NCBI GenBank assembly: GCA_022414725.1
Contig: CM039462.1
Coordinates: forward strand, 10,791,177 to 10,855,176
Direction of reading: 5' to 3'
Length of the DNA stretch: 64,000 bases
From: Microglena sp. YARC
Taxonomy: Eukaryota; Chlorophyta; Chlorophyceae; Chlamydomonadales; Chlamydomonadaceae
Below the pieces are notes generated by a model. It had not been told where the DNA came from and ran no database searches. It saw nothing but the letters and a program-made list of their open reading frames with translations. The translations under genes and the position numbers were made by a program. Positions 25,250 to 62,450 of the stretch are shown one piece after another (the first letter of the stretch is position 1; every line of letters begins with the position of its first letter).

Positions 25250-25335
25250 CAGGTGGCGAATGAATTGCTTCTTAGTGACCCTGTCTGCATTCTTACTTTG
25301 TGGGTTTGTGCTTAGATTTAAACGGAATATCATTT
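25250..25335 (+). pseudogene. Degenerate copy of the BUD23 exon start at the satellite edge
   Basis: The stretch gctgcag then gtggcgaatgaattgcttctt parallels the true acceptor and exon start at 25460-25490 (gctgcag then gcgccgaatgaaggccttctt). The similarity continues: MNCFLVTLSAFLLCG against MKAFFSTLYASLVRG. It lacks a plausible donor and is diverged, so it is an old partial duplicate of the exon, 217 bp upstream. Confidence 0.7.
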
Positions 25336-25466
25336 CAAATCTGGAGTCAGTAACTTCTGCAGGTGCCGGTATAATATATATATTATGTATACCAATAGTG
25401 CCTATATATGTATGGTGTTGTCAAATACTGAAAATGCAGCTCAATCTGAAATCATTCATGCTGCAG

Positions 25467-25590
25467 GCGCCGAATGAAGGCCTTCTTTTCGACCTTGTAC
25501 GCATCTTTAGTTCGTGGGGCTCGTGCTGTGCTTCAAATCTACCCCGAAAACTTAACTCAAGCTGAAATGTTGGTAGGATCTGCTATGAAG
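25467..25590 (+). CDS. BUD23: BUD23 internal exon A
   Basis: The acceptor is ctgcag (25461-25466) and the donor gtaagc (25591). After one carried-over base the frame gives RRMKAFFSTLYASLVRGARA, then VLQIYPENLTQAEMLVGSAMK, the helix preceding the VGFSGG block in BUD23. The exon end (gatctgctatgaag) is the seed of the 44-bp array that follows. Confidence 0.92.
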
Positions 25591-28500
25591 GTAAGCTTTG
25601 CTGTTCACCCTGAAAAATATTGATCTGCTATGAACCCTGATGTGCTGTTCATCCTAAAACCTATTGATCTGCTGTGGTCCCTGATGTGCTGCACATCCTA
25701 AAACCTATCAATCTTCTATGGACCCTGATGTGCTATTGATCCTAAAACCTCTTAATCTGCTATGAAGACTGATGTGCTGTTCATCCTAAAACCTATTGAT
25801 CTGCTATGAACCCTGATGTGCTGTTGATCCTAAAACCTATTGATCTGCTAAGAACCCTGATGTGCTGTTCGTCCTAAAACCTCTTAATCTGCTATGAACC
25901 CTGATGTGCTGTTGATCCTAAAACCGATTGATCTGCTATGAACCCTGGTGAGCTGTTGATCCTGAAACCTATTGATCTGCTATGGACCCTGATGTGCTAC
26001 TGACCCTGATAAATATAGCGTATTGACCCCCCCCTGAGAAGGTGTGATGTGCAGTTGGCCCTGAAAGCTATTGATATGCTACTGGCCCTGATAAATAAAC
26101 AGTCTTGACCCCCCCCCCCCCCCCCCCCCCACCCCCCCCACACACACACACTGAGAAGGTGATGTGCAGTTGGCCCTGAAAGCTATTGATATTCTACTGG
26201 CCCTGATACTTCAACAGTCTTGACCCCCCCACCCCCACCCCCACCCCTCTGAGAAGGTGTGATGTGCAGTTGGCCCTGAAAGCTTTTGATATGCTACTGG
26301 CCCTGATACTTCAGCAGTCTTGACCCTTCCACCCCCCCACCCCACCCCCACCCCTCTGAGAAGGTGTGATGTGCAGTTGGCCCTGAAAGATATTGATGTG
26401 CTACTGACCCTGATAAATAAACAGTATATACCCCCCTATGAAGAGAATTAAATGATCACTGTAGTACGAACTCAGGGCCCCCGTAGGTAAAACGATTGTT
26501 TGGGGTTCACTTTATCAATGTTTTTTTCTTTTGAAGCCCCTGCTACCACGGTTGGGAAAGTCCCTTAAGCCTGTTTGGCCTACCCCTGGACTGTAACATG
26601 CGTACATACATACATACGTACATACAAACATTCCCTCCTATGAGCATGAAATGTCCAAAAGAGCATAGGCATTTTCTTTGGGGGTTTTCTTTGCAGCTTC
26701 TAGGCAGCTCCCTAAGCCAGCCACTGGGATAAGCCCCAAGATGTTAGTAGTGCTGTATCTGGCTGTACAGCTGATAATTCGAAGAACACCAGGGTGCTTG
26801 TTCTCTGGCTGTATAGCAAACCAGAGGAGCTGCCTAGAAGCTGCTGCTCAAAGTCAAAAAGAAAACCACTTAAGCACCTTCTCAGCTGCCTCATAAATAA
26901 ATAAATAGTGCGCCTTATTACGAGGTGGGAGGTTGGGGAGGCCAGCTCGTTTGCTTGCACTGGAGCCAGCCACCAATAGGGTGGTGTGTGTGTGGGGGGG
27001 GGGGGGGGGGGGGGGTCATCATCACCTCCTTGGCTTCAATTTCTCATCTGCCTCTTCCCTGCCTTCAAGTATGCTTGCAGGTTGGATTTTCAGGTGGCTT
27101 GGTTGTTGACTTCCCCAACTGCCCATTCCTCGGCTTCAATATCTCATTTTCCCCGTCCCTGCCTTCATTTGTGTTGTCCAGGTTGGATTCTCAGGTGGCT
27201 TGGTTGTTGACTTCCCCAACTGCCCATTCCTTGGCTTCAATATCTCATCTCACTCTTCCCTGCCTTCATTTGTGTTGTCCAGGTTGGATTCTCAGGTGGC
27301 TTGGTTGTTGACTTCCCCAACTGCCCATTCCTTGGCTTCAATATCTCATCTCACTCTTCCCTGCCTTCATTTGTGTTGTCCAGGTTGGATTCTCAGGTGG
27401 CTTGGTTGTTGATTTCCCCAACAGTACACGTGCCAAGAAGTACTTCCTCACTCTGATGGTTGGCACTAGCTCGTGCATGCCGCAAGCAAGGGGCCTCAAC
27501 GGATCGGATTCTGAGGATGATGGGCCCAGAGGAGAAGTAAAGGTGGGAAGTTGTTTACATTACGTTCATTGCCATAGACAGGCTATAGTTGACCCAATAC
27601 AAGCCCAGTTGAGCACTCAATCTATCAAGATCAGGCTTGGTTGGTACAGTAGTACAGTAGCTTTGCTTGCCGCAAGCAAGGGGCCTCGAGGGATCTGATT
27701 CTGAGGTTGATGGGCCCAGAGGAGAGGTCAAAAGTGTGAATTTGTCATATTAGTCAGACGAGCCGTCTGACCAGAATTTTGAATATATTTGAAGACTTAT
27801 ATTATTTTGACACTATAATAATATTAGTTAATATTAGTTTTCCAAACACTTATATTAGTTGCCATACCCTACTTACTCAGCATCCCTGCAGGGTTTAAGG
27901 GGGTTGCCTGCACCCGCCTCACTACTTCCCCTCAGAGTTTAAGGGAGTTGCCTGCACCCGCCTCACGACTTCCCCTCAGGTGCAAGCTAGAGAGTGGAAG
28001 CACTACGAGAAAGGCTACACGGATCGGCCCAGCAGCAATGTGATGAAAACAACTATTTTGCTTGGTTGCCTAGCTCTTTGTTTACCACCTTGCTGTTTTC
28101 TCTCATGTGCAAGATCGAGAGCGTAAGCACCCTAAGAAGGGCTACAAGGATCTGCTCAGCAGCAATGTGAAGAAAACAGCTATTTCGCTTGGTTGCCTAG
28201 CTCTTTGTTTACCACCTCACTGCCAACTGGGCTGGTCCTGCCGTGCTGGGCTGGTCCTTCCAGCCCGTCTGATGGCAGTAAGGATCAGCCCAGCATGTAC
28301 GTCCTAACAAGCATCCCCTTCAATTAGTTGAAAGTCGCTAACACCCGCCTCACCGCTTCTTCTCATGTGCAAGGGCGAGAGTGTAAGCACCATATCCTGG
28401 GCTGGCCCCCTCTACCTCATGCCCCTTAATAGGGCGTACTGTTCATTTATTTTAAAGTTGCTAACACCCGCCTCACCGCTTCTCCTCGTGTGCAAGGGCA

Positions 28501-28828
28501 AGAGCGCCGGAAGAAGGGCTGCAAGGATCTGCCCAGCAGTTATGTGATGACAAACAACTCTTTCGCTTGGTTCAAAAATTACCGAAACCTTTTTTTACCA
28601 CCTTGCTGATTTTGCACCACTTACACCTTTTTTTACCACCTTACTGATTTCTCTCAGGTGCAAGGGCGCGAGCGTAAGCGCCGCAAGAATGGCAAAGGAG
28701 GCTCTGGGAAGGCCGTTGGCAAGGATTGGGTATTTAAGAAGAAGGATCAAATGAGGAAACGTGGGTATGCGGATATCCCAACGGACACCAAGTACACGGG
28801 GCGCAAGAGGAAGCATGTCAGCACATAA
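25467..28828 (+). CDS. BUD23: BUD23, 18S rRNA (guanine-N7)-methyltransferase, C-terminal exons
   Basis: Three exons join in phase 0: 25467-25590, 27384-27542 and 28658-28828 (stop TAA). The joined protein reads FFSTLYASLVRGARAVLQIY, then the VGFSGGLVVDFPNSTRAKKY block, then a Lys/Arg-rich tail with KDWVFKKKDQMRKRG and DTKYTGRKRK. These blocks match the C-terminal half of BUD23/WBSCR22 (known from the family). That enzyme methylates one guanine of 18S rRNA with its activator Trm112 and helps small-subunit maturation in the nucleus. The SAM-binding N-terminal half is not in the window and must lie upstream, so satellite A probably occupies an intron of at least 24 kb. The exons themselves are intact. 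Confidence 0.9.
25575..26035. repeat. 44-bp intron minisatellite echoing the exon A donor end
   Basis: The unit tgatctgctatgaaccctga, then tgtgctgttnatcctaaaacctat, repeats about ten times at 44-bp spacing (25621, 25665 and so on). The first unit overlaps the real exon end and donor (ggatctgctatgaag then gtaagctttgctgtt), so the array appears to grow from the splice junction. Confidence 0.85.
26036..26430. repeat. About 118-bp tandem repeat with poly-C tracts
   Basis: Four copies of a unit containing gagaaggtgtgatgtgcagt and tggccctgaaagctattgat, separated by C-rich tracts. One of these (26109-26130) is a near-pure C run. The unit shares ctgatgtgct/gatatgctac words with the 44-bp array and may derive from it. 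Confidence 0.8.
26455..26605 (-). repeat. Dispersed repeat (gtccaggggtaggcc family) with neighbour segment
   Basis: In reverse complement, 26545-26600 reads gtccaggggtaggccaaaca then ggcttaagggact. Relatives lie at 30427-30470, 44510-44560 and 63318-63368. The preceding piece cgaactcagggcccccgt (about 26470) also has a relative at 30595, so two or more copies share a longer element. Confidence 0.65.
26693..26844. mobile_element. MITE-like element with gcagcttctaggcagctcc inverted ends
   Basis: Perfect 19-bp terminal inverted repeats (26693-26711 and 26826-26844) bound about 114 bp without coding sequence. Related ends occur at 29157-29312, 37590-37735 and, as a single end, about 62468-62483. 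Confidence 0.7.
26891..26983 (+). repeat. Dispersed repeat D85, copy 1
   Basis: It begins with an aaataaataaata run, then ccttattacgaggtgggagg and a ggccagctcgtttgcttgca segment. Five copies occur in the window (26891 +, 28389 -, 28847 -, 29717 +, 35865 +). It is non-coding and resembles a short retroposon. Confidence 0.75.
26993..27015. repeat. Poly-G tract
   Basis: A run of about 20 G within the BUD23 intron, immediately before the 101-bp echo array. Confidence 0.95.
27081..27383 (+). repeat. Three 101-bp echoes of the BUD23 exon B acceptor and start
   Basis: At 27081, 27182 and 27283, exactly 101 bp apart, the sequence cag then gttggatt(t/c)tcaggtggc recurs, continuing to ttccccaact. The fourth copy, 27384, is the functional exon. 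Each echo holds a polypyrimidine stretch, an AG and about 43 exon bases (VGFSGGLVVDFPN), then falls into intron sequence instead of the STRAKKY codons. Spliced inclusion would have no obvious donor. Confidence 0.95.
27384..27542 (+). CDS. BUD23: BUD23 internal exon B
   Basis: The 159-bp exon encodes VGFSGGLVVDFPNSTRAKKY, then FLTLMVGTSSCMPQ and an acidic SDSEDDGPRGEVK end. The acceptor is tccag before 27384. The donor is probably gtgggaag at 27543, or gtaaag at 27537; both keep phase 0. The VGFSGGxxVDFPNSxxAKK block is a BUD23 family hallmark. Confidence 0.93.
27666..27738 (+). repeat. Echo of the BUD23 exon B 3' end
   Basis: The stretch ttgccgcaagcaaggggcct, running to gagaggtcaaaagtg, copies the exon end at 27477-27549 with several substitutions. 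It is a donor-side echo 189 bp downstream. Confidence 0.88.
27740..27978. other. AT-rich intron segment and duplicated acceptor tract
   Basis: The first 120 bp are AT-rich with no recognised feature. At about 27893-27978 a unit of about 47 bp (tttaagggggttgcctgcac, then ccgcctcactacttcccctcag) occurs twice. It is an acceptor-like tract related to those before the terminal-exon echoes. Confidence 0.7.
27979..28545 (+). repeat. Four echoes of the BUD23 terminal exon start
   Basis: At 27979, 28108, 28368 and 28490 a stretch beginning gtgcaag(g/a)(g/t)cgagag follows a pyrimidine-rich tct(c)atg/cag tract and continues agcgtaagc...aagaagggctacaaggatc. Each is a diverged copy of the true exon start at 28658. 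Only the fifth, at 28658, continues into the conserved tail. A D85 copy lies between the third and fourth echoes. Confidence 0.85.
28389..28455 (-). repeat. Dispersed repeat D85, copy 2
   Basis: In reverse complement it has aaataaatga, gtacgccctattaag, then ggcatgaggtagagggggcc. It is a partial copy of the D85 family. Confidence 0.65.
28658..28828 (+). CDS. BUD23: BUD23 terminal exon
   Basis: The acceptor is tctctcag (28650-28657). The exon encodes VQGRERKRRKNGKGGSGKAV, then GKDWVFKKKDQMRKRGYADI, then PTDTKYTGRKRKHVST and TAA. The W-V-x-K-K-(D/E)-x-M-R-R and DTKYTGRKRK ends are the conserved basic tail of BUD23. It is the only copy with both halves intact. Confidence 0.94.
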   Translation: MQGRERKRRKNGKGGSGKAVGKDWVFKKKDQMRKRGYADIPTDTKYTGRKRKHVST

Positions 28829-28920: not shown

Positions 28921-28947
28921 TATATAGCTCTGGACTGTCAGACAACA

Positions 28948-29143
28948 GGGAGTGGCTTGAAGGAGTGGGATCGAATGAGGAGACGTGGGTATGCAGATAT
29001 TCCTACGGACACCAAGTATACTGGGTGCGAGAGGAAGCATGTCAGCACATAAGCTTTAGCTCTAGACAGTCAGGCAGCAGGGATTGGATGTTGAAGAATA
29101 AGGATCGAATGAGGAGACGTGGGTATGGAGATACTGTTTTTTA
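28948..29143 (+). repeat. Two echoes of the BUD23 terminal exon after the stop codon
   Basis: Echo 1 (28948-29053) reads REWL then WDRMRRRGYADIPTDTKYTG, CERKHVST and a TAA, copying the exon's last 28 or so codons. Echo 2 (about 29068-29143) reads SRDWMLKNKDRMRRRGYGD and then diverges to a stop. Both keep the coding reading but have no splice acceptor adjoining them, so they are probably non-coding duplicates in the 3' region. Confidence 0.88.
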
Positions 29144-29146
29144 ATG

Positions 29147-29312
29147 GCTATGCGTAGCAGCTTCTAGGCAGCTCCATTCCCCTGCCATTCGGCCTAACCA
29201 GAAGCTAGCTAGTGTGTCTGAAAGCTGAAATGATGGGCATTCCAATGCAGCTGAAAGCTTTTGTCTTCACCCAGTGCCTGGCTAATGGAACTGGCTGGAA
29301 GCTGCATAGCCC
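29147..29312. mobile_element. MITE-like element, second copy
   Basis: The left end ggctatgcgtagcagcttct then aggcagctcc faces an inverted right end (aactggctggaagctgcata then gccc). The ends share about 20 of 25 positions and belong to the family seen at 26693. Confidence 0.55.
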
Positions 29313-29317
29313 CCAAA

Positions 29318-29512
29318 AGAAAGTAATGAGAACTCCTGGTGGAGCGTGGTATTAAGGGAGCCCCATCTTTCGGCGGTAGAGAACGGGCTGCTACTTTACC
29401 TGGGCAAAGCTGCCATGCCATGGGGGTTGACAGCGACCACGAACACTTAAGCGCACCCGTGGGGATTCAAACACCGCACCTTGTTTCTCCGAGCTCCACC
29501 TTTGAGCAATTC
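29318..29512 (-). mobile_element. tRNA-derived SINE-like element, copy 1
   Basis: On the minus strand an A-box-like ttgctcaaaggtgg (about 29500-29510) is followed by a B-box-like ggtgtttgaatcccc (29461-29475). The body contains gctactttacctgggcaaag in plus orientation and ends ctcattac at 29318. Homologous copies are at 45695-45883 and 63745-63870, so this is a dispersed family with a pol III-type head. Confidence 0.6.
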
Positions 29513-29539
29513 ATCAAAACGTACTGTGCATGGAGATGT

Positions 29540-29645
29540 ACCAACAGACAGTCCCACCCACATACCCACCTACCCGTCCACCAACCCACATACCCACTCA
29601 TCTACCCATCAATCCATCCACCACCCATCCACCCACAAGTACCCT
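29540..29645. repeat. Degenerate (ccca/ccac)n tract
   Basis: A run of cccac, caccc and atccacc words with about 4-bp periodicity. Confidence 0.8.
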
Positions 29646-29669
29646 GGGCGCACGAGGAAGCATTTATGA
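29627..29669 (+). repeat. Third downstream echo of the BUD23 terminal exon
   Basis: The stretch cacaagtaccctgggcgcac then gaggaagca reads HKYPGRTRKHL, copying the last codons (TKYTGRKRKHV) of the terminal exon. Confidence 0.65.
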
Positions 29670-29716
29670 CTACAGGTCTGGAAAGTCTTGCAGCATACTC
29701 TGGCAACCATTTACAG

Positions 29717-29806
29717 AAATAAATAAATAGTACTCCTTATTACAAGGCGTGAGGTTGAGGGGGCCAGCCCGTTTGCTTGCTCGAGGGCCAACCACCAACC
29801 ATATCT
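29717..29806 (+). repeat. Dispersed repeat D85, copy 4
   Basis: It has aaataaataaatagtactcc, then aaggcgtgaggttgaggggg and ccagcccgtttgcttgct. It is close to copy 1. Confidence 0.78.
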
Positions 29807-30426
29807 TATATTTATTTATTTTGATATACCGTTAAATTGGATTGAGTATATCAGTATATGGTCTATCAGCCCTCAGGCTGCTCGTCTGCAGGCGGAGTTA
29901 ACATGGGTATTATGAACACGACCACACGGCACTCTTGAGTACAGAATGCAATCACACGGGTGCTCTTAGTCTGATGCATAACGTCATAAAAGATGAATCG
30001 TAATTGTTACAAGGTTCTATACGCCGGCAATTCGGCGTCTAACAGTCAGCAACACACACACACACACAAGATGGGTGCTCGTAGTCCGATGCTGCTTAGC
30101 AGGTCTTGACTTAAGTAGCTTCTTGTACCGTATTGAATTAATGATCGTGTGGAATTGCTTCCATTGTTCAGCGTTGCGCATGTCCCTATAGCCGAATTGG
30201 CTGCCCCTGGACTGAAGCATATCAACCTACATAGAATTTACATGGCAACTTACCTAAAAGAAGTGCTGAAGCACTGTAGTCCCGTAATGTACAGGAGTGT
30301 TTTCAAGGGTTTTCAGTTCCCTGTACTTGCAGTCCGTTGGAACATGCAATCTGGTGCATGGAGAACTGTAAATGATTAAGGAATCGGGAGTTTCGTGTAC
30401 ATGAAGTTGTGTGTGCTGTTGCATTC

Positions 30427-30470
30427 CAGGGGTAGACCAAATAGGCTAAAGGGAAGTGCCCAACTATAAA
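30427..30470 (+). repeat. Dispersed repeat (gtaggccaaataggct family), plus copy
   Basis: The stretch ccaggggtagaccaaatagg then ctaaagggaagtgcccaa matches 63320-63360 and the reverse-oriented copy at 26545. Confidence 0.7.
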
Positions 30471-30935
30471 AAGAAGGGATATAATGCGAAATTACTAGTG
30501 GACTGCACCCCAAACAATTTTTTACCGGGGGGGCTCATCAACTGCTGCAGTAATAATATTTTAATTATGTTAAGTTCAATAATCTACATTGCACGAACTC
30601 TGGGCCCCCGTTGTTTACGATGTGTTGGAGTTCGGTTCACCAGTGCTTGTTTTGCATACAGCTCTTCCCAATATTTATGTTGGTCAAGTCAATTTAGACT
30701 ATTTGGCTACGCCTGAACCGTCTATACTTTTAAGACAAAATTCTATGAAAACCTACATATACACGGGGAGGGGAGTTATGCAAAAGGAACACGGTGAAAA
30801 TAGTAGGGGGCCCTGGCGGGTCCCCTGGAGGTCGGCCCCGGGGGTGGGGTATGGAACACGGTGGCTTCTGGGTTTGTAGTTCAGTTTAGGTTTTTCAGTC
30901 TCAAACACTCTCGCGGTGTCAAGTAGACTTTAACA

Positions 30936-30963
30936 TGTAATGTAATGTAATGTAATGTAATGT
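30936..30963. repeat. (taatg)n microsatellite
   Basis: Five uninterrupted copies of a 5-bp unit, taatg. Confidence 0.95.
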
Positions 30964-31863
30964 AAGTTGTCTAAAATTGTTACATTTCTTGTTGAATGTT
31001 GAAAAATATGACAAAGTTGTCCACTTGGGTATGCCAAGGTGAAACGACGTGCAGCGGGATACATTTGCTAGTTGCAATCGCCAACAACTTGATCGTTTGA
31101 GACGTTTAACGTAGATTGTCATGTTATGTTTTATGTCTAGGCTTGGCATCCAATGGTATGCTTTTACTTTTAAAACTGTGAGGGAGCCGTCATGTATATC
31201 AGTATATGTCATTTATTGTACCAGGAGTGTGAATGCAGTTGAGGCGGATGCCTTCTTTCTTTGGCTGTTTCTGATGGATGTGGAACGTGGTTTCCGTGTG
31301 TCTACGATAAGAGCTTGTTAGTCGGCTGTTGTGTTGGACATGCTCCAGGTGACCAGGTCCCTATATTGAGTCCACAGGGCAGGAGGGAAACGACAAATGA
31401 AAACATGGTAGGGGGCCCTGGCGGGTCCCCTGGAGGTCGGCCCCGGGGTTCGTGTGATGTTCGTCAAGCAGCAGTGGCAGCCTCCTTGGTGATGGATGCA
31501 CAAGCAGTTGCTTACTTATCCGTACAATTTAATATTGGGGGGGTCAAGAATCAATGTAGCATGGCATGGCATTATTATTCAACTTGGTGGCATGTAAGAA
31601 TAATGGACTTATTAGCTCACTGACTTCCCGAAGTTCCATGGAGGCAGGTGCAGCAACTCCCGAGGCTACAGTTGCTACTTCGCAACCTGCAGGAACTAGT
31701 GCGAAAGAGCAGATTTCCTTGTCAAGCACAATGCGCTGATGCAATGAGCTAGGAGAGTCACGAAGAAGCGAATTCTTCAGGGGGAAATCGTAGACATGCT
31801 CCTGGTCCCTAGACTGAGTCCACAGGACAGGAGGGAAACGACAAATGAAAACGCCGCGTCCAC

Positions 31864-32545
31864 AGTCCGCAACCCTGAGATACGTACGCGAAAAAGTGCC
31901 CTCAGAGGTAATCCGCCCCCGACGGGAATCGAACACGAGCCGGTAAGATTTCAGGCCAGTCAGATTAACAGGCAATTTTGACCGGCGTTCTTGGGAATAT
32001 TTGAAGATGTGAAGATGTGACGATGTGAGGACTTGACCAATTCGCATTGATTTTTGCTGAGCATGTAACTTTATCCTCACTCTCCTCTCTCTCACGATTT
32101 CGCGGGACTATCGCATAGGTCTGTCTCCCTTAGGGGGCCGACCAACCGCACTACAGTCCGCAACCCTGAGATCCGTATGCGAAGAAGTGCTCTCCGGGGC
32201 AAGCTTTCGACAGCAGGTTGGTTTCGCAAAGTGCACCATTTTGCCGCAGGTACAGCAACTCCCAAGGAAGTTGAAAAGCGAAGTTGCTCTTCGACCATTG
32301 GAGTTGCTTTGCGGATATCGAACTTGCTTTCAGACTATCCAAACTGCTTTGCGACTATTGGACGTGTGAGGCTTTGCATATACTGGTGTTGCGACTATTC
32401 AACTTGCTTTGCGGCTTTCGAAATCCGCAGCCCTGAGATCTGGACGCGAATAAGTGCCCTCAGAGAAATTAACACGGGTCGATTCCATGCGAAAGAAGTC
32501 GGTTTAACCGTTTCTTGGGAAGATTTGAAGATGTGAGAAACAGCC
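31864..32545. repeat. Three-copy repeat of about 280 bp
   Basis: The motif cgcaaccctgagat(a/c)cgta followed by a gaa.aagtgc(c/t)ctc segment occurs at 31868, 32155 and 32431. A second shared piece (cttgggaa(t)atttgaagatgtga then cgatttcgc) follows copies 1 and 3. On the minus strand of copy 1, gctcgtgttcgattcccgtc (about 31918-31937) matches a pol III B box, so the unit may be tRNA-derived. Confidence 0.65.
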
Positions 32546-33998
32546 CGATTTCGCTAAAGTATCGCCTAGGTGTGTCTCCCGACCAACTTGGACAGAGAAC
32601 CATTTGATTTAGAAGCTCGGGCGAAGGGAATTCAGGCACGAGACAGCCTGGCAGCGGCAAGCTCTTCTAATCAACAAAACAATTCATTGTTGTGATAGTA
32701 TAGGGCGCGCAGGGCTTAGGCGCATGGCGCCACTTTTATGTAAGCCTAACGACGCTTTAGGCGAATTTCATCTTCCATACTGCATCATAGCAAGAGTACT
32801 TGGGCTCAACTTTGATTCTGTCTTCTCAGGCAGATCCATGTCTAAGGCCAAGCTCGGTGGTGGAGCCCGGCTGGTGATCTATTCCCGGTATTCGACGTTC
32901 AAATTCAAGTCATCGGACCAAGTTGCAAGCTTTTAGGTAGCCACGAAGCATACTTGGGGAGTGCATAGGGTACACCTACATGTTTGGGGGGAGGTCTGGC
33001 TATGCCTCATGGGCACCATGAGCATTCATAGGCAAGCCTTAATGGGGGTGCCTAGGCAGTGTCATGTGGCATATATATTCAAGTTCATGGCACATGGTGA
33101 CATGGTGCACACCTACCAGCTCTACCTCCTATGGATGTATATACAATGCATCCCCAAAACATGCCACATGGGGACTCAAACATAGCTTGGAACTTGGCCT
33201 GCTCACTTATATGTTTTAAAGTTCCACCCTTGGTGTGTGTGTGTAACGCGAATAGCCTATTTGCATCAAATTTGGGGCATGGGAATACAAGGAGCACGTA
33301 GCAAAAGAATGGCCACGCACCACATACTTAAATTACTTGTAAAAGGGCCCAACTGCAACCCATACCCAATGTCATGATTCCATCTTCACATGATATTTTA
33401 AAAATAGGCATACATGGGCAAACAAACCTTGGGGGCCCTAGTAGGACGAGGCATGATGTCGAGGGCGCAATCCCCTTCGCATGGGCCAACGTTACAAGCC
33501 CTCCAACCGTATTCAAGTCTGCCAAGCTGTCATCAATATTCTATATACATTCCAACTTCCGTAGAACCGTGCCTGCAAAGTTTTAACTTCAAAATCTATG
33601 ATATTGCTTATACTGTAATTATGTTTAGGCACATGCGCAAGCTACTTGCACCGAATCCATGTACCACTCGCCATGCGACAGCATGTTCGAACCGTAGGCC
33701 CCTCCATACATTCACCGATCGAAATTCCTGGGTAAAAGCAATAAAGCGACCAGGCAAAGATACAAGAAGGCAAGAAAGTGGAGCAGATTGGCAGTGCAAA
33801 TAATGATCTAGACCTCTCCCTCTAGAACCTACTTGGAAATTAGAAACAAGGGTTCGGGAGCGGGGGTTTCCTTTCTCTAGAAGCTACTGTCATCGGCGTC
33901 AGATTCATAACGCGCGCGAAGGTTACAGCTACAGCAACTCTACATCGCAAGGAACCTAGCACGACTCAACTCACTTCACCTCGCCGCAAGCAGCAACA

Positions 33999-56400: not shown

Positions 56401-57829
56401 TGTGTGTGTAAACGGTCTTCTACGAGGGGGGGTGTGAGGGTGGGGAGGGGGGGGAGATGAATGATGAGGAAAAGATTAGTGTGTGTGTGTCTCTGTTTCT
56501 GTGTGCGTATGAGTGTGTGTGCAGACGGTCTGCTACGAGGGGTGGGGGTGGGAGATAGAGAAGATGACTGCCCAGATTTGGGCCGAGAATTGCTCCAGTT
56601 TGAAAATTGCTGCAAAAATTTGTACACCAGGCGATACGCGATCCTGCAGGATATATTCGGGTGGGGCGGGTGGGGGGAGGCATTACGTAATTTGGCGCAG
56701 GAGAATGCTCCCGAGAACTCCAGGTAGGAAGAACTTAGATTACGCGTGGGAAACGATTGGGATGAGGAGAAAGTGAGACAAGGGAGTCCAGGGTGGGGAT
56801 GGCTGGGTCGGGTGGAGGGTAGGGGGTGGAGGGAAGAGAGAGAGATTGCGAGTGGAGGGGTGGGGGCAGGTGAGGGGGCAGGAAGAGGACGGGGAAAGCA
56901 AGGGTTATGTGGTAAAGGTGGGTGGAGTGGGGCAGGGAGAGGATTGGTATGCTTGTGTGGTAAAGGGGGGTGGGTGGGGATCAGAGAAGGGTCACCTGAC
57001 TTCCTTGAGGTGGAATGAAAGCAGTCGGGTTTGTCAGGCACGAGTTACTTAGTTCAAGAGAAGTGGCACTACAAGTGTACTGTTCTGCTTCACGTACATA
57101 GAACAGAATCATTATTTCCCTTTCACTCGTTTGTGTAAGATGTGTAGTGTAGTATTCATCCTTTGTCCCCTGAGTCCTATTAGTCACGGTTTGCGCCAAC
57201 AGCACCACCAACTCCACCAATACCAACACCAACTGCTGACAGGTTGCAGTGTCTGAAAAGAAGATAGAAGAGGGTGGCAAGGCGTTGAAGGGCGGCAACC
57301 TAGGCATGCATTGACTGGCTACCTGAAGGCCACCAACACCATCAACGCCACCAACAACGCCACCAACATCAACAACATCAACAACACCAACAACACCGAC
57401 AACACCGACAGCACCACCACCAACAACAACAACAATGACAACAACAACAACAACAACCACCGCACCACCTACAACAACAACAACAACCGCACCACCAACA
57501 CCAACAACACCGACAACAACAACAACAACATCAACACCAACAACAACTACTGTCAGGTTGCAGTGTCACAGAATAAGGTTTAAGAGGGTGGCAAGGCGGT
57601 GAGGGGCGGCAACTTGAAGCATGCATTGACTGGCTACCAGAAGGCCACACACACAATCAACACTACCACAACGCCACCAACAACACACCAACGCCACCAC
57701 ACCACCACCAACGCCACCAACACCACCAATAACAACAGCAACAACTCCTGGCAGGTTGCAGTGTCTGAAAAGAAGAAGGAGAAGGGTAACAAGGCGTTGA
57801 AGGGCGGCAACCTAAAGTGTGCCACGACC

Positions 57830-57861
<32 letters not shown>

Positions 57862-58530
57862 CAACTCAGTCAACAACAACTACAACAACATCAATAACTT
57901 CACTACCAACACCACCAACACAAAGAGCACAAGCAACTCAAACAACAACAGCACCAACAACAACACGAACAACAACAACAACAGCACCACTTCCACCACC
58001 AACAACAACAACAATAGCACCAACAACAACAACACGACAATACCATCACCAACAACAACAACAACAATTACAAGAGCACCAACAGCAGCAGCACCACCAC
58101 CACCAACAACTTCAACACCAATACCACCAACAACAACACCAACAACTACTGTTAGCTTGCAACTGCTGAAAAGAAGAATGAGAAGGGTAACAAGACGATC
58201 AAGGAGGGCAACCTGAAGCGTGCATACATTTACTATCAGAAGGCCGACAACACCGACACCAACAACACCAACTACTGGTTAACGGTGTTACACAATTATA
58301 TTGCAGTCCAGCCGCACATTAAAAAAATATATCTTAATTTAGATCCAACAAATAATTAGCCAGCCAGCCAGAAAACAACTTCAATGTATCAAATACAGTA
58401 AGTCATCTAGTTAGGGACTTGCCCTCGCATCACATAACATTTGCTATGCTAGGTGTGTCATTAAGCTGATCACTTCTATCTATACCCTTTGGGCTAGTAG
58501 CCAAGTTGCTGCTGGAGGGGGAGGGGGGGG

Positions 58531-58566
<36 letters not shown>

Positions 58567-61500
58567 GAGATAGGTGGCTCTAGTTGGCCCTAGGTGGAGG
58601 GGAGGAGATATGGAGAGGAGGAGGGGGGGACATACTACCGTGGGCTTCTAAGTCTTGGGCTATCCAAGCTAAGCTAACCAACTACTGTTAGGTTGCTTTG
58701 CTGAAAAGAAGAAGGGGAAGGGTAACAAGGCGTGCAAGGAGGGCTACCTTAAGCGTGCATACATTAACCATCAGAAGGCCACCAACACCAACAACACCAA
58801 CTACTGTTAGGTTGCATCTGCTGAAAAGAAGAAGGAGAAGGGTAACAAGGCGTTCAAGGAGGGCAACCTTAAGCGAGCATCATCGTGCTACCAGAAGGCA
58901 AGCGCCGCCATCAGCATTGACAAGAACTTTAGTGAGGAGTTGAAAGCGTCAGTCACAGGTTTGTGAAGAAAGTCGTGCTTCTTGAACTTGGCGGCTGTTG
59001 GATTGAAGCTGAAGGACTACAAGGAGGTGAAGAGCAACTGCGCTAAGGTAAGCATCAAATTTCACTTTTTGTGTGGCGGTGTGTGTGTGTGGGGGGGGGG
59101 GGGGGGGGGGGGGGGGTAGCCTGGCCTCGTGGTCTCGGTACGCTAGCCCTAGGACTGGCTGTTTGTTGAATCTAATTTGACTGTTTTGTTGCTGTAATTT
59201 GAATGTTTGTCGGCTGTAATTTGGCTGTAATTTGACTTTTCTCTGGCTGTAATTTGACTGTTTTTTGGCGTAATTTGACTGTTTGTTGCTGTTATTTGAC
59301 TGTTCTGTTGTGTAGGTGATTCGAGACGGAGGCTAGCATTTTGAAGGCCTTGTACCTTCCAGATATCATATATCAGACACTTTGCTGAGTTGACTCATAT
59401 TTGTCTGTTTCTTGACTGTAACGTGACTGTTTGTTGACTGTAACGTGACTGTTTGTTGACTGTAACGTGACTATTTGTTGACTGTAACGTGACTGTTTGT
59501 TGACTGTAACGTGACTATTTGTTGACTGTAACGTGACTGTTTGTTGACTGTAACGTGACTATTTGTTGACTGTAACGTGACTGTTTGTTGACTGTGACGT
59601 GACTATTTGTTGACTGTAACGTGACTGTTTGTTGACTGTAACGTGACTATTTGTTGACTGTAACGTGACTGTTTGTTGACTGTAACATGACTGTTTCTTG
59701 ACTGTGACGTGACTGTTTCTTGCCTGCTTGTTGACTGTGATTAGACTGTTTGTTGTGCAGGTGCTTGAGATGGAGCCTAGCAACATGAAGGCCTTGTACC
59801 GTCGTGCGCAAGCCTACCATGCAACGCAGGACTATCAGGAGGCTGAAGCAGATGTCAAGAAGGGTCTGTTGGATGAGCCTACTGACAAAGACCTACTGAT
59901 TTTGTCCAAGAGGATCAAGGTATGTTAATGCTTCCCTTTTTTCTTTTTTACCACGGATCTTTTTTTCTCAGCTACAAGCACCAGCTTCAAGGTGGCTCCC
60001 CTACTTGGTTAGTCTGCCAAATCTGAACACAGGACTTCCAGGAAGCTGAGACAGATGTCAAGAAGGGTCTGTTGGATGAGCCTACTGACATGGACACACT
60101 GACTTTGCCATCAAGGAGGATCAAGGCAGGTCAATGAATGAATGAATGACTCAATGACTGAATGAACGTAACCCTACGCGTGACCCTACACGTACACACA
60201 AGCATAACACTGCACATACAATTTAAGTGTAAAGAAGGGTCGGCTGGATGAGCCAACTGACGTGGACATATTGACTTTGTTGAAGAGGATGAAGGTACGT
60301 CAAGGCTTGGCTATCACAATCAATTTCAACTGCTGATGCAGTCGACTTTGTTCTTGTAATTGAAGCAGACATCTCATCAAACTGGAGTGCAGGACACTGA
60401 TAATTATACCTTATGTACGTGGTAATGCCGGGCATGAACTATTTCCCCCCTCCCTCCCACACGCACACCACCGCCACCTTACACACCTTCACCCTCCCTA
60501 CCACCCCACTTCCTTCTCAACACCTCCAACCCTAGGGCCGGCATGAACTATCTTCCCCCTCCCTCCCGCACACACACCACCGCCACCTTACACACCTTGA
60601 CCCTCCCTACCACCCCACTTCCTTCGCAACACCTCCAACCCTGTGGCCGGCATGAACTATCTCCCCCCTCCCTCCCACACGCACACCACCGCCACCTTAC
60701 TCACCTTCACCCTCCCTACCACCCCACTTCCTTCGCAACACCTCCAACCCTGTGGCCGGCATGACCTATCTTCCCCCTCCCTCCCACACGCACACCACCG
60801 CCACCTTACACACCTTCACCCTCCCTACCACCCCACTTCCTTCTCAACACCTCCGACCCTGTGGCCGGCATGAACTATCTCCCCCCCCCCCTTCCACACG
60901 CACACCACCGCCACCTTACACACCTTCACCCTCCCTACCACCCACTTCCTTCTCAACACCTCCAACCCTGTGGCCGGCATGAACTATCTCCCCCCTCCCT
61001 CCCACACGCACACCACCGCCACCTTACACACCTTCACCCTCCCTACCACCCCACTTCCTTCTCAACACCTCCAACCCTGTGGCCGGCATGAACTATCTCC
61101 CCCCCCCCCCTCCCACACGCACACCACCGCCACCTTACACACCTTCACCCTCCCTACCACCCCACTTCCTTCGCAACACCTCCAACCCTGTGGCCGGCAT
61201 GAACTATCTCCCCCCTCCCTCCCGCACACACACCACCGCCACCTTACACACCTTCACCCTCCCTACCACCCCACTTCCTTCTCAACACCTCCAACCCAAC
61301 CCTTGGCCACAGGTGTCCCAGAAGGATTCCAATGCGAAGGCAGCTAAGATGTACAGCAAGATGTTTGCTTCCAGTATTGGGGGTGGCGGGGATGGGGTGG
61401 GGGGTTCGAGGGGTGGGGTGGGCGGGGTACATGGGTGGTCGGCAGGTGAAGGGATGGGGTCGCTCAACTGCATCTCAACACCAACCCCTTGGCCACAGGT

Positions 61501-61729
61501 GTCCCAGAAGGAATCCGATGCTAAGGCGGCTAAGATGTACAGCAAGATGTTTGCTCCCAGTAAGAGCAAGCCTGCTGATGAGAAAGCCGACAAGGACGGT
61601 GTTGCCGACGGTGGGCAGGTGGCGGAAGGTGAAGAAGCCAAGCAGGGTGGGGCTGATGCTACTACTGACATGAGCGGTGTTCTAGATGTGAAAGCCACAA
61701 TTGCTAGTGGTAAGGCAGTGATGCATTGA
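33999..61729 (+). CDS. FKBP62: FKBP62/ROF1-like peptidyl-prolyl isomerase with TPR domain
   Basis: Eleven exons: 33999-34029, 34550-34614, 35129-35207, 36533-36622, 39182-39442, 41078-41308, 43679-43948, 55695-55920, 58811-59047, 59761-59919, 61499-61729 (about 620 codons; Arabidopsis ROF1 is about 550). After an acidic N-terminus come FKBP domain 1 with the full active-site set (VHYTG Tyr, KFDSS Phe-Asp, VIKGWD Trp, YAYG Tyr), a degenerate FKBP domain 2, FKBP domain 3 with Leu instead of the active-site Trp, and a TPR domain with the HSP90 carboxylate-clamp residues (KEKGN, LNLAA, KALYRR). In plants such proteins are HSP90 co-chaperones in heat acclimation. Exon phases agree throughout. Exon 8 has indels and exon 9 one in-frame TGA; both may be sequence errors. 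Confidence 0.93.
34030..34549. other. FKBP intron 1
   Basis: Contains a (gt)n run at 34376-34429 and a g-rich tggg tract. No exon echo was recognised here. Confidence 0.7.
34550..34614 (+). CDS. FKBP62: FKBP exon 2, acidic linker
   Basis: Acceptor ttggctgcag, donor gtaagc. Encodes [20 protein letters not shown], an acidic stretch like the N-terminus of plant FKBP62/65. Confidence 0.82.
34615..35128. other. FKBP intron 2 with poly-C, (ac)n and a tandem repeat of about 110 bp
   Basis: Two poly-C runs (34625-34642, 34683-34700) with adjoining (ac)n tracts. A unit of about 110 bp (tggcagaattgc, catgccctcca, ttctttgtatagcagacaag or its relative) occurs at 34917 and 35027, running up to the exon 3 acceptor. 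Confidence 0.75.
35129..35207 (+). CDS. FKBP62: FKBP exon 3
   Basis: Acceptor tatgacag, donor gtaaga. Encodes [20 protein letters not shown] then KGDSVT, the strand before the VHYTG motif of FKBP domain 1. Confidence 0.92.
35208..36532. repeat. FKBP intron 3 with donor-side tandem echoes
   Basis: Copies of a unit of about 170 bp (35210-35640) carry aatgtttggtaatgggtcag, gatcctcagact and gattgtatgtctggag words. One contains gtggattggaaaaggtgtcag then gaagccaggga, resembling the exon 3 end with its donor. A D85 copy lies at 35865. At 36028-36115 a segment (ggggccatttctgactactt and following) is related to 62298-62385. A poly-G run is at 36370-36384. Confidence 0.72.
35865..35926 (+). repeat. 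Dispersed repeat D85, copy 5 (shortened)
   Basis: It has aagtaaatagtatgccttat, then ggcgtgaggttgaggg and ggccagccaccaatccg. The gtttgcttgca segment is missing. Confidence 0.72.
36533..36622 (+). CDS. FKBP62: FKBP exon 4, domain 1 core
   Basis: Acceptor tttgtcgcag, donor gttagt. Encodes [20 protein letters not shown] then [10 protein letters not shown], with the active-site Tyr, Phe, Asp and Arg of FKBP12-type domains. Confidence 0.95.
37590..37735. mobile_element. MITE-like element, third copy
   Basis: gcagcttctaggtacc at the left faces gggagctgcctagc at the right. These are the same terminal motif as at 26693, with about 115 bp of non-coding interior. Confidence 0.5.
38929..39181 (+). repeat. 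Two 133-bp echoes of FKBP exon 5 acceptor and start
   Basis: The word gttg(g/c)ga(c/t)gtgg...gttg(c/g)caccatg appears at 38931, 39064 and 39197, exactly 133 bp apart. Only the third is the true exon. Each echo has a ctctctccccaatt tract, a tag acceptor-like end and an exon stretch up to caccatg(a/g)gga. The second echo keeps an agtag then gttctcctatcaagggttg junction. Confidence 0.93.
39182..39442 (+). CDS. FKBP62: FKBP exon 5, domain 1 end and linker
   Basis: Acceptor gactgtag, donor gtaagt. Encodes [20 protein letters not shown], then [20 protein letters not shown], then [11 protein letters not shown], completing FKBP domain 1. A linker follows with [20 protein letters not shown]. Confidence 0.96.
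39443..41077. repeat. FKBP intron 5 with exon 5 and exon 6 echoes
   Basis: A unit of about 60 bp (aactgtaactg...taacttaaagagtcatacat) repeats at 39470-39660. The exon 5 donor end gcttgggtaagt recurs at 39709. A larger exon 5 end echo (accaccatcgtgaactccac through gatattgacgaaggcttgga) lies at 39970-40042. A hairpin (ctataggcagtcg against cgactgcctatag) is at 39779-39833. 40440-40520 is attt-rich. Four exon 6 acceptor echoes end the intron. Confidence 0.88.
40559..41077 (+). repeat. Four echoes of FKBP exon 6 acceptor and start
   Basis: A gccgcag-type acceptor followed by t(t/c)accttt(g)ccatctatgag and cacgtggagc(a/g)gaa(g/t)ggccca occurs near 40562, 40681, 40810 and 40944, then as the real exon at 41078. 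Units are about 120-135 bp. Each echo runs about 60 bp into exon sequence (…[12 protein letters not shown]) and then into an aaaataaaat tract. Confidence 0.93.
41078..41308 (+). CDS. FKBP62: FKBP exon 6, degenerate FKBP domain 2
   Basis: Encodes [20 protein letters not shown], a [20 protein letters not shown] stretch, then [20 protein letters not shown] and LKPE. It has an FKBP-like end ([11 protein letters not shown]...LKPEYAYG) but lacks the YTG and FDSS active-site residues, so domain 2 is probably inactive. The exon ends in GAAT followed by GCAAGT, a GC donor. Only that cut restores the Tyr of YAYG with exon 7. Confidence 0.93.
41309..43678. repeat. FKBP intron 6: ten echoes of exon 7 acceptor and start
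   Basis: Exon-like stretches starting atgc(c/a)ta/tg/ca...gagggcaatgc(t/c)cctga and ending gagcttgta/gtgg...agcaag begin at 41622, 41755, 41926, 42094, 42248, 42429, 42598, 42818, 43065 and 43410. The real exon is at 43679. Units are about 130-270 bp, joined by cccacccaccc and (ac)n tracts, and poly-C runs (41344-41366, 43350-43398). Echo 9 is split by an insertion of about 108 bp. The intron opens with GC, not GT. Confidence 0.95.
43078..43185. other. About 108-bp insertion splitting an exon 7 echo
   Basis: Echo 9 is interrupted between cccacggct and gagggcaatgcccctg by a segment rich in ggtaccg and ggtact words (ctccaggtaccggccccctg and similar), which form internal inverted repeats. It may be a small mobile insertion; no target duplication is certain. 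Confidence 0.5.
43679..43948 (+). CDS. FKBP62: FKBP exon 7, domain 2 end and domain 3 start
   Basis: Acceptor cccatccag, donor gtgagg. Encodes [20 protein letters not shown], then [20 protein letters not shown], then [20 protein letters not shown] and DEFTFTTDE. The second half starts FKBP domain 3, which keeps YTG and IFD. Confidence 0.96.
44256..44470 (+). repeat. Two donor-side echoes of FKBP exon 7
   Basis: gacaagttcaccaaggatga then ag, followed by gtgaggaggggcctgcagtg and gtgtacgtacatgtg, repeats the true exon end and donor region (43925-43995). A second copy at about 44407 has gtggtgaggggcctgtagtg. Confidence 0.9.
45079..45130 (+). repeat. Echo of FKBP exon 8 start with in-frame stop
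   Basis: cttgtgcag then gggaggtgcctgagggtctg and gagctggtcttggtgatgat gaccaag tga copies the exon 8 start at 55695. It ends in TGA after [11 protein letters not shown], and no donor follows. Confidence 0.85.
45340..45545 (+). repeat. Dispersed repeat of about 190 bp (pair with 63440-63630)
   Basis: Shared words include gcagcatcgcaagcggcgcg/gcagcgttgcaagcgaagcg, gtgtgttggcaac, aggtgg(t/c)aacga, agttagtta, gtcagg and gggggct(t)c(c)gccgaaaacat. The two copies are collinear and in the same orientation. Confidence 0.75.
45565..45690 (+). pseudogene. Fused FKBP exon fragment left of satellite B
   Basis: After ggtgcag the sequence reads [13 protein letters not shown] and then [11 protein letters not shown], the FKBP motif AYGxxGSPPKIPxNATL seen in exon 5. 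It has an inserted stretch and no donor. A second copy lies at 55545-55640, on the other side of the satellite. It ends cactctcaacatcatatgcc, the first hint of the satellite unit. Confidence 0.7.
45695..45883 (+). mobile_element. tRNA-derived SINE-like element, copy 2
   Basis: An A-box-like tggctcaatgg (45703-45713) and a B-box-like gaacgaatccc (45737-45747) precede a body with tcaaccgccatggtagcttt and caggtaaagtagcagcccgt, ending ccccaccaagtgttatcatt then actt. Spacing of about 24 bp between boxes suits a tRNA-type head. It abuts the start of satellite B. Confidence 0.65.
45887..49050. repeat. 21-bp satellite B, clean part
   Basis: The unit accaacatcatatctaaac(at) is 21 bp, with frequent variants in which tctaaacat is replaced by accaacat. 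Because 21 is a multiple of 3, several frames stay open for over 1 kb on the minus strand ([14 protein letters not shown] repeats) and some on the plus (IPTSYLN). They have no codon-use or domain evidence and are not genes. Confidence 0.97.
46030..47863. repeat. Higher-order duplication of about 0.7 kb in satellite B
   Basis: A block with marker variants (atataaacatgccagcatca, caaaccaacatc, tctataataccaac) at about 46380-46800 recurs at about 47090-47460 with the same order of variants, an offset of about 713 bp. Confidence 0.75.
49051..55540. repeat. 21-bp satellite B, low-quality part
   Basis: Same unit, but indels occur in most copies from about 49051 onward and the array turns nearly unreadable around 52500-54500. 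The sharp change in quality inside one array suggests unpolished long-read fill. No gene is present. Confidence 0.93.
55541..55690 (+). pseudogene. Fused FKBP exon fragment right of satellite B
   Basis: ggtgcag then gggaggttaccctggccttt, followed by [13 protein letters not shown], repeats the fragment at 45565 with indels. It ends cactctcaacatcatacccc. The pair of copies brackets satellite B. Confidence 0.7.
55695..55920 (+). CDS. FKBP62: FKBP exon 8, domain 3 end (frame broken by indels)
   Basis: Acceptor ggtggtgcag, donor gttagt. It starts [14 protein letters not shown] in frame. Recognisable FKBP words then appear in other frames: KPEYAFGEK (about 55775-55801), then [20 protein letters not shown] and [11 protein letters not shown] (from about 55820). 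At least five small indels and an apparent TAA at 55742 interrupt it. The exon lies at the end of the error-rich stretch and its neighbours are intact, so I read the breaks as sequencing errors. Confidence 0.88.
56003..56565 (+). repeat. Five donor-side echoes of FKBP exon 8
   Basis: The exon end (tgctacgagggggaggtggtg, then gagat and gaagagcaaagacgcttggg, then aaatgaatgatgaggag) recurs, ending at 56047, 56178, 56319, 56474 and, incomplete, about 56560. Most are followed by g(t)gagtgtgtgt-like donors. Four of the five keep a plausible GT donor. Confidence 0.92.
57320..58150. repeat. (aac)n/(acc)n trinucleotide tracts
   Basis: Long mixed runs of aac, acc and caa triplets between exon 9 echoes. 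The open frames here (poly-Asn, poly-Thr) reflect the repeat only. Confidence 0.95.
58507..58564. repeat. Poly-G tract
   Basis: About 50 bases of nearly pure G in intron 8, ending ggggttgagat. Confidence 0.95.
58811..59047 (+). CDS. FKBP62: FKBP exon 9, TPR 1 and 2
   Basis: Acceptor actgttag, donor gtaagc. Encodes [20 protein letters not shown], then [20 protein letters not shown] and [20 protein letters not shown], with carboxylate-clamp K-N and N residues. An in-frame TGA at 58964-58966 separates ELKASVTGL from [10 protein letters not shown]. The reading continues on both sides, so a substitution, a compensating indel pair or an error is likely. Confidence 0.9.
59048..59760. repeat. FKBP intron 9: poly-G, exon 10 echo and 22-bp array
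   Basis: Poly-G at 59091-59116. An echo of exon 10 (tgtag then gtgattcgagacggaggcta, then attttgaaggccttgtacc) at 59316-59360. About 15 copies of a 22-bp unit (tgactgtaacgtgactgttt + gt) fill 59405-59750 and run into the exon 10 polypyrimidine/acceptor, ttgactgtgattagactgtt then tgttgtgcag. Confidence 0.92.
59761..59919 (+). CDS. FKBP62: FKBP exon 10, TPR 3
   Basis: Acceptor tgttgtgcag, donor gtatgt. The 53 codons begin [20 protein letters not shown] and continue [20 protein letters not shown]. Lys and Arg of KALYRR complete the HSP90-binding clamp. Phase 0 at both ends. Confidence 0.96.
60430..61300. repeat. 109-bp minisatellite, eight copies
   Basis: The marker catgaactat recurs at 109-bp steps from about 60433 to 61197 (one copy is 108). 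Copies differ by few bases. The unit end (ctcaacacctccaaccc) is also the tract before the exon 11 acceptor, so the array extends from the intron end. Confidence 0.95.
61313..61378 (+). repeat. Echo of FKBP exon 11 start
   Basis: cttggccacag then gtgtcccagaaggattccaa reads [20 protein letters not shown], nearly the same as the true exon start 186 bp downstream, and then breaks into a gggtggcgggg tract. Confidence 0.95.
61499..61729 (+). CDS. FKBP62: FKBP exon 11, C-terminus
   Basis: Acceptor cttggccacag. Encodes [20 protein letters not shown], then a Lys/Asp/Glu/Ala-rich tail, ending [17 protein letters not shown] and TGA. The [10 protein letters not shown] end matches the FKBP62/FKBP51 C-terminal KxxKFYGNMF segment. 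Confidence 0.95.
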   Translation: MSQKESDAKAAKMYSKMFAPSKSKPADEKADKDGVADGGQVAEGEEAKQGGADATTDMSGVLDVKATIASGKAVMH

Positions 61730-62450
61730 GGTGAGATTGGAAGTGGGTCAACAGTGGACAGATGGAGGGAAGTGGAGACGCCTAGCTAAAAAGAAAAGCT
61801 ATTAAGCAAAGGAGGCTGGTGGGACTTGGTATGCTATTTCTGGTCAGGGTTGTTTAGAGCGTCCTCCGTCACAGACACAACAATGAAGGGCCCGTTGCGT
61901 CGCAAGAAGCAAAGTGGGGAAGGTCCGTTGACTAGAAGGAAGGGCCCGTTGCGTCGCAGGATGTAGGCTATACAATTGGTTTGCTTTCTCGGGCAAGCAG
62001 AGCTGGGGGTCGTCCTGTACTCTGCTACTGGCATGAGCGGTGCCCTCTATGTGCAAGCTGCTGCTTGAATTTTAATTCGAATTATTACATCAGCTTTGTC
62101 CTCAATGTGCAGGCTGCAGCTTGAATTCGAATTCGAATTGTAACATGAGCGTTGTCCTTGGCAATGTGCAAGCTGCTGCCAGTTGTTTTTTTGTGCGCCG
62201 CATCGCAAATTGAGCGACTCGGTGCGACCCCAGTGCAACGCGCTGCCCCCTGAACCTACGAAGTGCGGAGCCTGGGGTGTGTGTGGGGTGTGTATGGGGG
62301 GGGACATTTCTGACTAGTTTAGACAGACCCATGCGTTGCCATGCATCGACAGACCTGCGACGGAATGCGAGGCGTCTTCAAAAACATACAGTGGCTGGTG
62401 CTTGAATTTGAATTGTTACATGAGTGGTGTCCCCAGCATGCAAGCTGCAG
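61730..62450. repeat. 3' flank with four echoes of the FKBP terminal exon
   Basis: actggcatgagcggtgccct then ctatgtgcaagctgctg (62028) copies actgacatgagcggtgttct then agatgtgaaagcc of exon 11. Further, more worn copies lie at about 62090, 62140 and 62415, spaced by ttgaattcgaatt words. A 27-bp word (agggcccgttgcgtcgca...) occurs twice at 61888 and 61942. At 62298-62385 there is a relative of 36028-36115. No second gene was seen. Confidence 0.75.

Follow-up and report, generated by a model that had tools for sequence, protein, structure and literature searches.

Exon edges in this genome are repeated, together with their splice sites, as diverged head-to-tail copies inside the exons' own introns. 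These copies, here termed echoes, are probably the product of pervasive small tandem duplication filtered by selection, in which units that clip an exon edge are tolerated. It is directly observed that the copies are local and direct, that they originate only from the near half of the exon, that they decay almost neutrally, and that the genome is rich in tandem repeats. The 64,000-nt stretch analysed here (the window) was the subject of a preliminary description, whose central observation of exon edges and splice sites repeated in their own introns is confirmed, also outside the window. Its interpretation fares unevenly: a genome-wide process that lengthens introns is supported by sampling, a bias toward junctions is not, and the statement that no named class covers the pattern stands only in part.

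Two genes on the plus strand of the window carry echoes. The BUD23-like gene (Pfam WBS_methylT) has only its last three exons in the window, at 25467-28828, and the FKBP62-like gene (Pfam FKBP_C) comprises 11 exons at 33999-61729. The exons, with the evidence for each, are as follows.

25467-25590, plus strand: BUD23-like exon A; splice sites and open frame, partly in the EukProt model P0001
27384-27542, plus strand: BUD23-like exon B; gene model, P0001
28658-28828, plus strand: BUD23-like exon C, the last exon, through the stop; Pfam WBS_methylT
33999-34029, plus strand: FKBP62-like exon 1; gene model
34550-34614, plus strand: FKBP62-like exon 2; gene model
35129-35207, plus strand: FKBP62-like exon 3; gene model, P0001
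36533-36622, plus strand: FKBP62-like exon 4; gene model, P0001
39182-39442, plus strand: FKBP62-like exon 5; gene model, P0001, P0002 comparison
41078-41308, plus strand: FKBP62-like exon 6, with a putative GC donor; gene model
43679-43948, plus strand: FKBP62-like exon 7; gene model, P0002 comparison
55695-55920, plus strand: FKBP62-like exon 8, reading frame broken in the assembly; gene model, P0002 comparison
58811-59047, plus strand: FKBP62-like exon 9, with one in-frame stop; gene model, P0002 comparison
59761-59919, plus strand: FKBP62-like exon 10; gene model, P0002 comparison
61499-61729, plus strand: FKBP62-like exon 11, through the stop; gene model, P0002 comparison

FKBP exons 1-7 form a single open frame. 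The donor of exon 6 is apparently GC (gcaagt, 41309-41314), judging from the reading frame into exon 7, while the frameshift in exon 8 (55695-55920) and the in-frame stop in exon 9 (58811-59047) represent either assembly errors or a decaying gene. Wherever both an FKBP exon and its echoes are matched by P0002, from a relative, the outermost copy is matched best: 120 bits vs. 29-37 for exon 7, 40.4 vs. 29.6 and 33.9 for exon 8, 99.8 vs. 39.7 and 30.4 for exon 9, 77 vs. 40.4 for exon 10, and 40.8 vs. 36.6 for exon 11. The public EukProt gene model P0001 shows zero substitutions relative to the window over FKBP exons 3-6. It joins the BUD23-like gene to the FKBP-like one and includes at least four echoes among its exons (27977-28042, 41917-41979, 42818-42889, and 45077-45124), so that at the present locus echoes mislead gene prediction into a fused model with false exons. 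The nearest match that bears an organism name is Micractinium, a green alga. Rfam and tRNA scans gave no matches, and viral contig scans found no relatives.

A comparison of the exons with all introns and 3′ flanks (E ≤ 0.1) returned 47 matches, every one on the same strand and 43 of them in an intron or 3′ flank adjoining the exon in question; the remaining four come from the interior of FKBP exon 5 and land in introns 6 and 7. When exon-edge queries of up to 120 bp were compared with their own introns, 43 copies were obtained at 14 of 24 junctions. In 39 of these 43 the copy starts 0-4 bp from the exon end, and at none of the 24 junctions did the reverse-complement score rise above the shuffle maximum. 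Queries spanning the splice site by 30 bp on either side (with the exon C acceptor placed one base off within its 60-bp query) detected a local copy at 19 of 24 junctions at a score of ≥36, at 15 at ≥44, and at 12 at ≥52. The echoes in the window are listed below.

25241-25295, plus strand: acceptor edge of exon A echoed where a 19-bp satellite ends; score 50
25599-25998, plus strand: 44-bp tandem array directly past the exon A donor; weak junction match, 43 vs. 26.5
27057-27321, plus strand: three echoes of the exon B acceptor edge in 101-bp units; alignment across the junction, spacing
27655-27745, plus strand: one echo of the exon B donor edge; exon-edge query, alignment
27958-28527, plus strand: acceptor edge of exon C echoed four times, the weakest copy scoring 30; exon-edge query, alignment
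28927-29133, plus strand: two copies of exon C coding sequence past the stop codon; 79% and 77% identity
35327-35383, plus strand: weak echo of the exon 3 donor edge; score 36 vs. null 31
36912-36932, plus strand: short echo of the exon 4 donor, TGGGACAAG followed at the splice site by gttagtctgtg; found by eye, junction score 45.5 vs. 33
38891-39093, plus strand: two echoes of the exon 5 acceptor edge in 133-bp units; alignment, spacing
39977-40039, plus strand: donor edge of exon 5 echoed once, without its GT; 89% over 63 bp
40542-40995, plus strand: acceptor edge of exon 6 echoed four times at intervals of 118-134 bp, each copy reaching 49 bp into the exon
41614-43505, plus strand: acceptor edge of exon 7 echoed ten times at intervals of 133-355 bp, the copies reaching 84-92 bp into the exon
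44267-44452, plus strand: two echoes of the exon 7 donor edge; alignment
45072-45119, plus strand: one echo of the exon 8 acceptor edge; exon-edge query, alignment
55971-56564, plus strand: five echoes of the exon 8 donor edge (three strong, two partial), spacing 125-152 bp
Further on, to 56917, plus strand: two weaker echoes of the exon 8 donor edge
57215-58796, plus strand: five echoes of the exon 9 acceptor edge; exon-edge query, alignment, spacing
59290-59359, plus strand: one echo of the exon 10 acceptor edge; alignment
60026-60308, plus strand: two echoes of the exon 10 donor edge; exon-edge query, alignment
61281-61376, plus strand: one echo of the exon 11 acceptor edge; exon-edge query, alignment
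62007-62058, plus strand: copy of an exon 11 segment past the stop, stop codon excluded; 75% over 52 bp, E 5e-5

All ten copy numbers given in the preliminary description are reproduced, with weaker scores included at some junctions: three at the acceptor of BUD23 exon B and four at that of exon C (lowest score 30); 2, 4, 10, 5, 1, and 1 at the acceptors of FKBP exons 5, 6, 7, 9, 10, and 11; five at the exon 8 donor at a score of ≥36 (three of them strong, and seven counting weaker ones); and two at the exon 10 donor. Its statement that introns 3-10 and both BUD23 introns carry copies holds generally, intron 3 having weak ones only (42 and 39). Splice-site-spanning queries found no copy at the E1 donor, the E2 acceptor, the E3 acceptor, the E6 donor, or the E9 donor. 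The acceptor-side tract described for intron 2 stops short of the junction (26 vs. 23 for shuffles), and the donor of that intron scores 40 vs. 36 in simple sequence. Copies had been described after both stop codons; the BUD23 stop is indeed followed by copies (62 vs. 29) but the FKBP stop itself is not (20 vs. 23), although a piece of exon 11 recurs past it at 62007-62058. The exon A acceptor echo (25241-25295) belongs to a 25th junction outside the 24-junction counts, and no upstream copy was found on the start-codon side of FKBP exon 1. Across the 12 introns, echoed junctions are commoner in longer ones (Spearman 0.58, p = 0.046).

The arrays consist of head-to-tail direct units of more than 10 bp, as in boundary minisatellites or internal tandem repeats, and the units straddle the exon-intron boundary, with 39 echoes (30 acceptor and 9 donor) aligning across the junction into intron sequence. 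Spacing is constant in some window arrays (133/133, 131/131, and 101/101/101) and irregular in others. Likewise, the depth to which the unit reaches into the exon is nearly constant in four arrays (45 and 45; 49 four times; 84-92 over ten echoes; 78 in four of five) and varies in others (97 and 67; 39, 71, and 71; 50 and 26). The simplest reading of the regular arrays is that one founding duplication was followed by amplification. Any two echoes share an identity of between 0.60 and 1.00. Those of the exon 5 array are less similar to one another than to the exon (0.75 vs. 0.85), while in the exon 6 array they are closer to one another than to the exon (0.95 vs. 0.91), which points to later amplification.

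The copies decay close to neutrally, like debris. Codon and gap counts, for which the 38 of 43 copies scoring ≥38 were taken, gave 448 substitutions and 47 gap events, and in 12 of the 38 copies the gap bases are not a multiple of three. Substitutions fall on the three codon positions in the proportion 133/141/174 over the 38 copies, of which six belong to exon 8 with its broken frame and two to exon C, and 122/118/160 (p = 0.017) over the 30 copies with a reliable frame (exons 8 and C excluded), a mild third-position excess that could be attributed to constraint in the exon lineage. At the splice sites, the AG of acceptor echoes is kept at 57 of 60 positions, compared with 81-85% in flanking columns, and the GT of donor echoes at 16 of 18; because the copies share descent, the counts are not independent, and the AG retention is a small, weak excess over pure drift.

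The window also contains repeats of other kinds. Three arrays of a 19-bp satellite (921-3800, 6458-13104, and 19322-25247) have indel rates of 20%, 10%, and 0%, and such different rates suggest uneven assembly polishing. Pieces of a Copia-like retrotransposon lie between two satellite arrays at 13527-18563, perhaps within a BUD23 intron. A palindrome in a Copia-like fragment (13531-14746), with two 455-bp arms that are 98% complementary and 306 bp apart, may be a read artefact or head-to-head copies. Intron 7 of the FKBP gene holds a 9.6-kb array of a 21-bp unit (45892-55536) with a GC skew of about -0.9 over most of its length. A dispersed repeat occurs at 26681-26865, 29130-29296, and 37564-37770, with 62-64% identity and a common 'cttctaggcagctcc' motif. 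A 40-bp inverted repeat (78% complementary) makes the first copy resemble a small DNA transposon, and no inverted repeat was found in the other two.

Sampling of the same genome (an assembly of 568 Mb in 2390 contigs) supports the earlier proposal of a genome-wide process that lengthens introns. In twenty 10-kb stretches taken at round positions, tandem repeat makes up 38.7% of the 192,557 bases examined, with periods of 30-300 bp accounting for 26.3% of the bases, and a local copy accompanies 190 of 382 random 60-bp points (only points and segments free of N were used). Gene regions of the window, at 38-47% tandem repeat with the 21-bp satellite excluded, are therefore ordinary for this genome, while the intergenic stretch of the window (29300-33990) is unusually clean, with 2% vs. 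39% in the genome samples.

The exons sampled beyond the window behave like those within it. Copies accompany 8 of 17 further FKBP-family matches, which are all the matches outside the present gene (one pair, L004 and L037, is separated by 3 kb, and the peptides of L005 and L006 are nearly identical), and the alignments there cross donor or acceptor sites. The same is true of 11 of 20 chaperonin exons, which are those of three genes on three contigs, taken from among 64 matches once the pattern was defined; one chaperonin-gene array has a spacing of 158 bp. In the window, 10 of 14 exons have copies. Flanks were 1.5 kb for the window, the FKBP matches, and the random segments and limited to the intron for chaperonin exons, and the ends of genome-sampled exons are HMM match ends as opposed to mapped splice sites. 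Altogether, 29 of 51 exons, which form three gene groups in a single assembly and are in part not independent, have copies, compared with 178 of 310 random segments. Where exons differ from random DNA is in the part that is copied. Among the matches listed, about 10-12 a side at most for exons and random segments alike, the half of the exon facing the copy is the source of 123 of 124 copies (42/42 for the further FKBP-family matches, 49/49 for chaperonin exons, and 32/33 in the window), compared with 517 of 1290 for random segments of matching lengths. Among the same listed matches, copies spanning more than 80% of the exon number 0/124, against 740/1290 for random segments; thus, tandem duplication of a whole exon with both its splice sites was not found. 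That exons are copied at the rate of random DNA, but as pieces of the facing edge, is what uniform duplication combined with coding selection predicts.

The proposed mechanism would begin with frequent small tandem duplications throughout the genome, with units of about 25 to 300 bp and not just at splice junctions, presumably copied by slippage or unequal exchange, and many of these duplications would grow into minisatellite arrays. A unit that falls entirely within an exon, or that covers one completely, would alter the protein and would probably be removed by selection. If the unit lies in an intron, or extends from it over one edge of an exon, an intact exon would remain, as would the outermost splice site. 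Such edge-clipping units would be tolerated, since splicing, which is likely to occur at the outermost site, presumably removes the additional copy. Exon definition is a natural candidate here because an echo has one splice site and a truncated exon; an echo acceptor followed only by a truncated exon may thus be ignored by the spliceosome. A persisting copy would then decay with little constraint and could be amplified further, the outcome being longer introns bearing echoes of the adjacent exon edges.

An alternative is that duplication is aimed at splice junctions, for example through break repair at R-loops or at paused transcription or splicing complexes. This we regard as unlikely, and the junction bias in the preliminary description is not supported. 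At the lenient score, junctions are covered slightly more often than intron-interior points (19/24 vs. 215/339, p = 0.09, Fisher; 0.79 at the junction vs. 0.64-0.73 further in), but the difference is not significant, and the two stricter scores give equal rates (15/24 vs. 192/339, p = 0.37; 12/24 vs. 179/339, p = 0.68, Fisher). Coverage is also roughly flat with distance, at 0.62 at the junction vs. 0.57-0.70 for the middle score and 0.50 vs. 0.53-0.64 for the strict score, in a profile from which 90 points lying within dispersed repeats, 6 of which had a copy, were left out. Exons echo at the random-segment rate (29/51 vs. 178/310), and about half of random genome points have copies. Of 48 exon-interior points, 14 have a copy, and these lie at depths reached by edge copies or near 3′ ends. 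Window introns do exceed the window intergenic stretch in local copies (215/339 vs. 19/106, p = 6e-17), as targeting would have it. The idea that introns are special relative to intergenic DNA was dropped, however, because random genome sampling (190/382 points) showed that this intergenic stretch is unusually clean.

Growth simulations, whose results are mixed, lend targeting some support. Without decay and with ancestral introns of 100-400 bp, single-copy events covered on average 14-18 of 24 junctions and bursts covered 7-11. A short ancestral intron is plausible because median intron lengths of 198-343 bp are reported for six Chlamydomonas relatives (PMC8226300). With decay and an interior coverage of 0.63, the means were 9-12 of 24 for single-copy events and 4-6 for bursts, vs. 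15-19 seen; single-copy events attained a mean of 15 only at an interior coverage of about 0.85-0.95 and reached 19 in at most 30% of runs, and bursts with decay never gave a mean of 15 covered junctions. Decay thus lowers simulated junction coverage, so that random growth is not a clean fit, and because the simulations mostly predict fewer covered junctions than are seen, there is room for a modest junction excess.

It is also conceivable, if distinctly unlikely, that redundant or decoy splice sites are useful to this lineage and that boundary-crossing duplications are favored for this reason, so that echoes are partly maintained and are not pure debris. This reading is motivated by the AG being kept slightly above drift and by junction coverage above most random-growth models; such sites might, for instance, allow very long introns to be removed in steps or cushion the effect of splice-site mutations. 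That echoes are outright functional as alternative exons, decoy splice sites, or recursive splice sites is highly unlikely. The retention of AG (57/60 vs. 0.81-0.845 in flanking columns) and GT (16/18) and the use of at least four echoes as exons by a gene predictor would agree with function, but the AG counts are not independent, owing to shared descent, codon positions change almost evenly (122/118/160 in 30 copies), gap bases break the frame in 12 of 38 copies, and the far splice site is missing, as 0/124 copies among the matches listed cover more than 80% of the exon.

An assembly artefact, through noisy long reads or mis-joined repeats, is very improbable. The window is partly rich in indels (satellites 921-3800 and 45892-55536), exon 8 is frameshifted, and there is a 455-bp palindrome at 13531-14746, but the echoes differ by substitutions (448) far more than by gap events (47), their pairwise identity spans 0.60 to 1.00, and the pattern recurs on several contigs. 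Dispersed elements carrying exon pieces, whether retrocopies, introner-like, or other mobile elements, can practically be dismissed despite the Copia-like pieces and dispersed repeats in the window and the 4 of 47 exon matches in non-flanking introns, since the copies include contiguous intron flank and 43 of 47 sit next to the exon they match, in the same orientation. The remaining four all trace to a single FKBP-domain stretch of exon 5 and are taken for domain similarity.

Tandem duplication inside genes is reportedly a common source of intron sequence, in an earlier study that concerned internal duplications and new introns, unlike the decaying exon-edge arrays seen here. The view that no named class covers the pattern has to be qualified: tandem repeats and duplications that cross exon-intron boundaries are described (PMC2812944, PMC4974935), while the density found here is unusual, and no account of the pattern at such density was found among titles and the openings of abstracts, most subscription papers being outside that scope. 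In human segmental duplications, minisatellites at exon-intron boundaries are reported to modify introns, with 27 intron modifications, about 7% of genes in segmental duplications, an average unit of 30 bp repeated four times, and RNA support (De Grassi and Ciccarelli, 2009, PMC2812944). Both cases have boundary-straddling tandem units that make introns longer, whereas the present arrays concern 29 of 51 exons tested and often have units of 100-300 bp. In potato, a boundary-crossing tandem duplication is described as having created a new intron (PMC4974935). There, too, the duplicated segment runs through an intron into the edge of the following exon and carries the splice signals with it, but it was a single event that yielded a new intron, while here existing introns gain many copies; tandem genomic duplication is listed as one route of intron gain in a review (PMC3443670). 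Introners, described as repeated sequences that are copied to many genes and create introns (PMC9860276), likewise shape introns at large scale, but echoes are local and derive from the adjacent exon. In the window, similar copies at unrelated sites, as expected of introners, were not found, with 43 of 47 matches in own flanks and four from exon 5. The present case is thus a variant of boundary tandem duplication that is notable for its density and unit length.

With their own edges repeated in the flanks of 29 of 51 sampled exons, introns of this genome preserve many traces of their growth. Since only the edges of exons are copied, the genome maps which small duplications are tolerated. Each array is also a natural test of splicing, in which up to ten similar acceptors precede the true one, and RNA-seq could therefore reveal how the spliceosome chooses among them.
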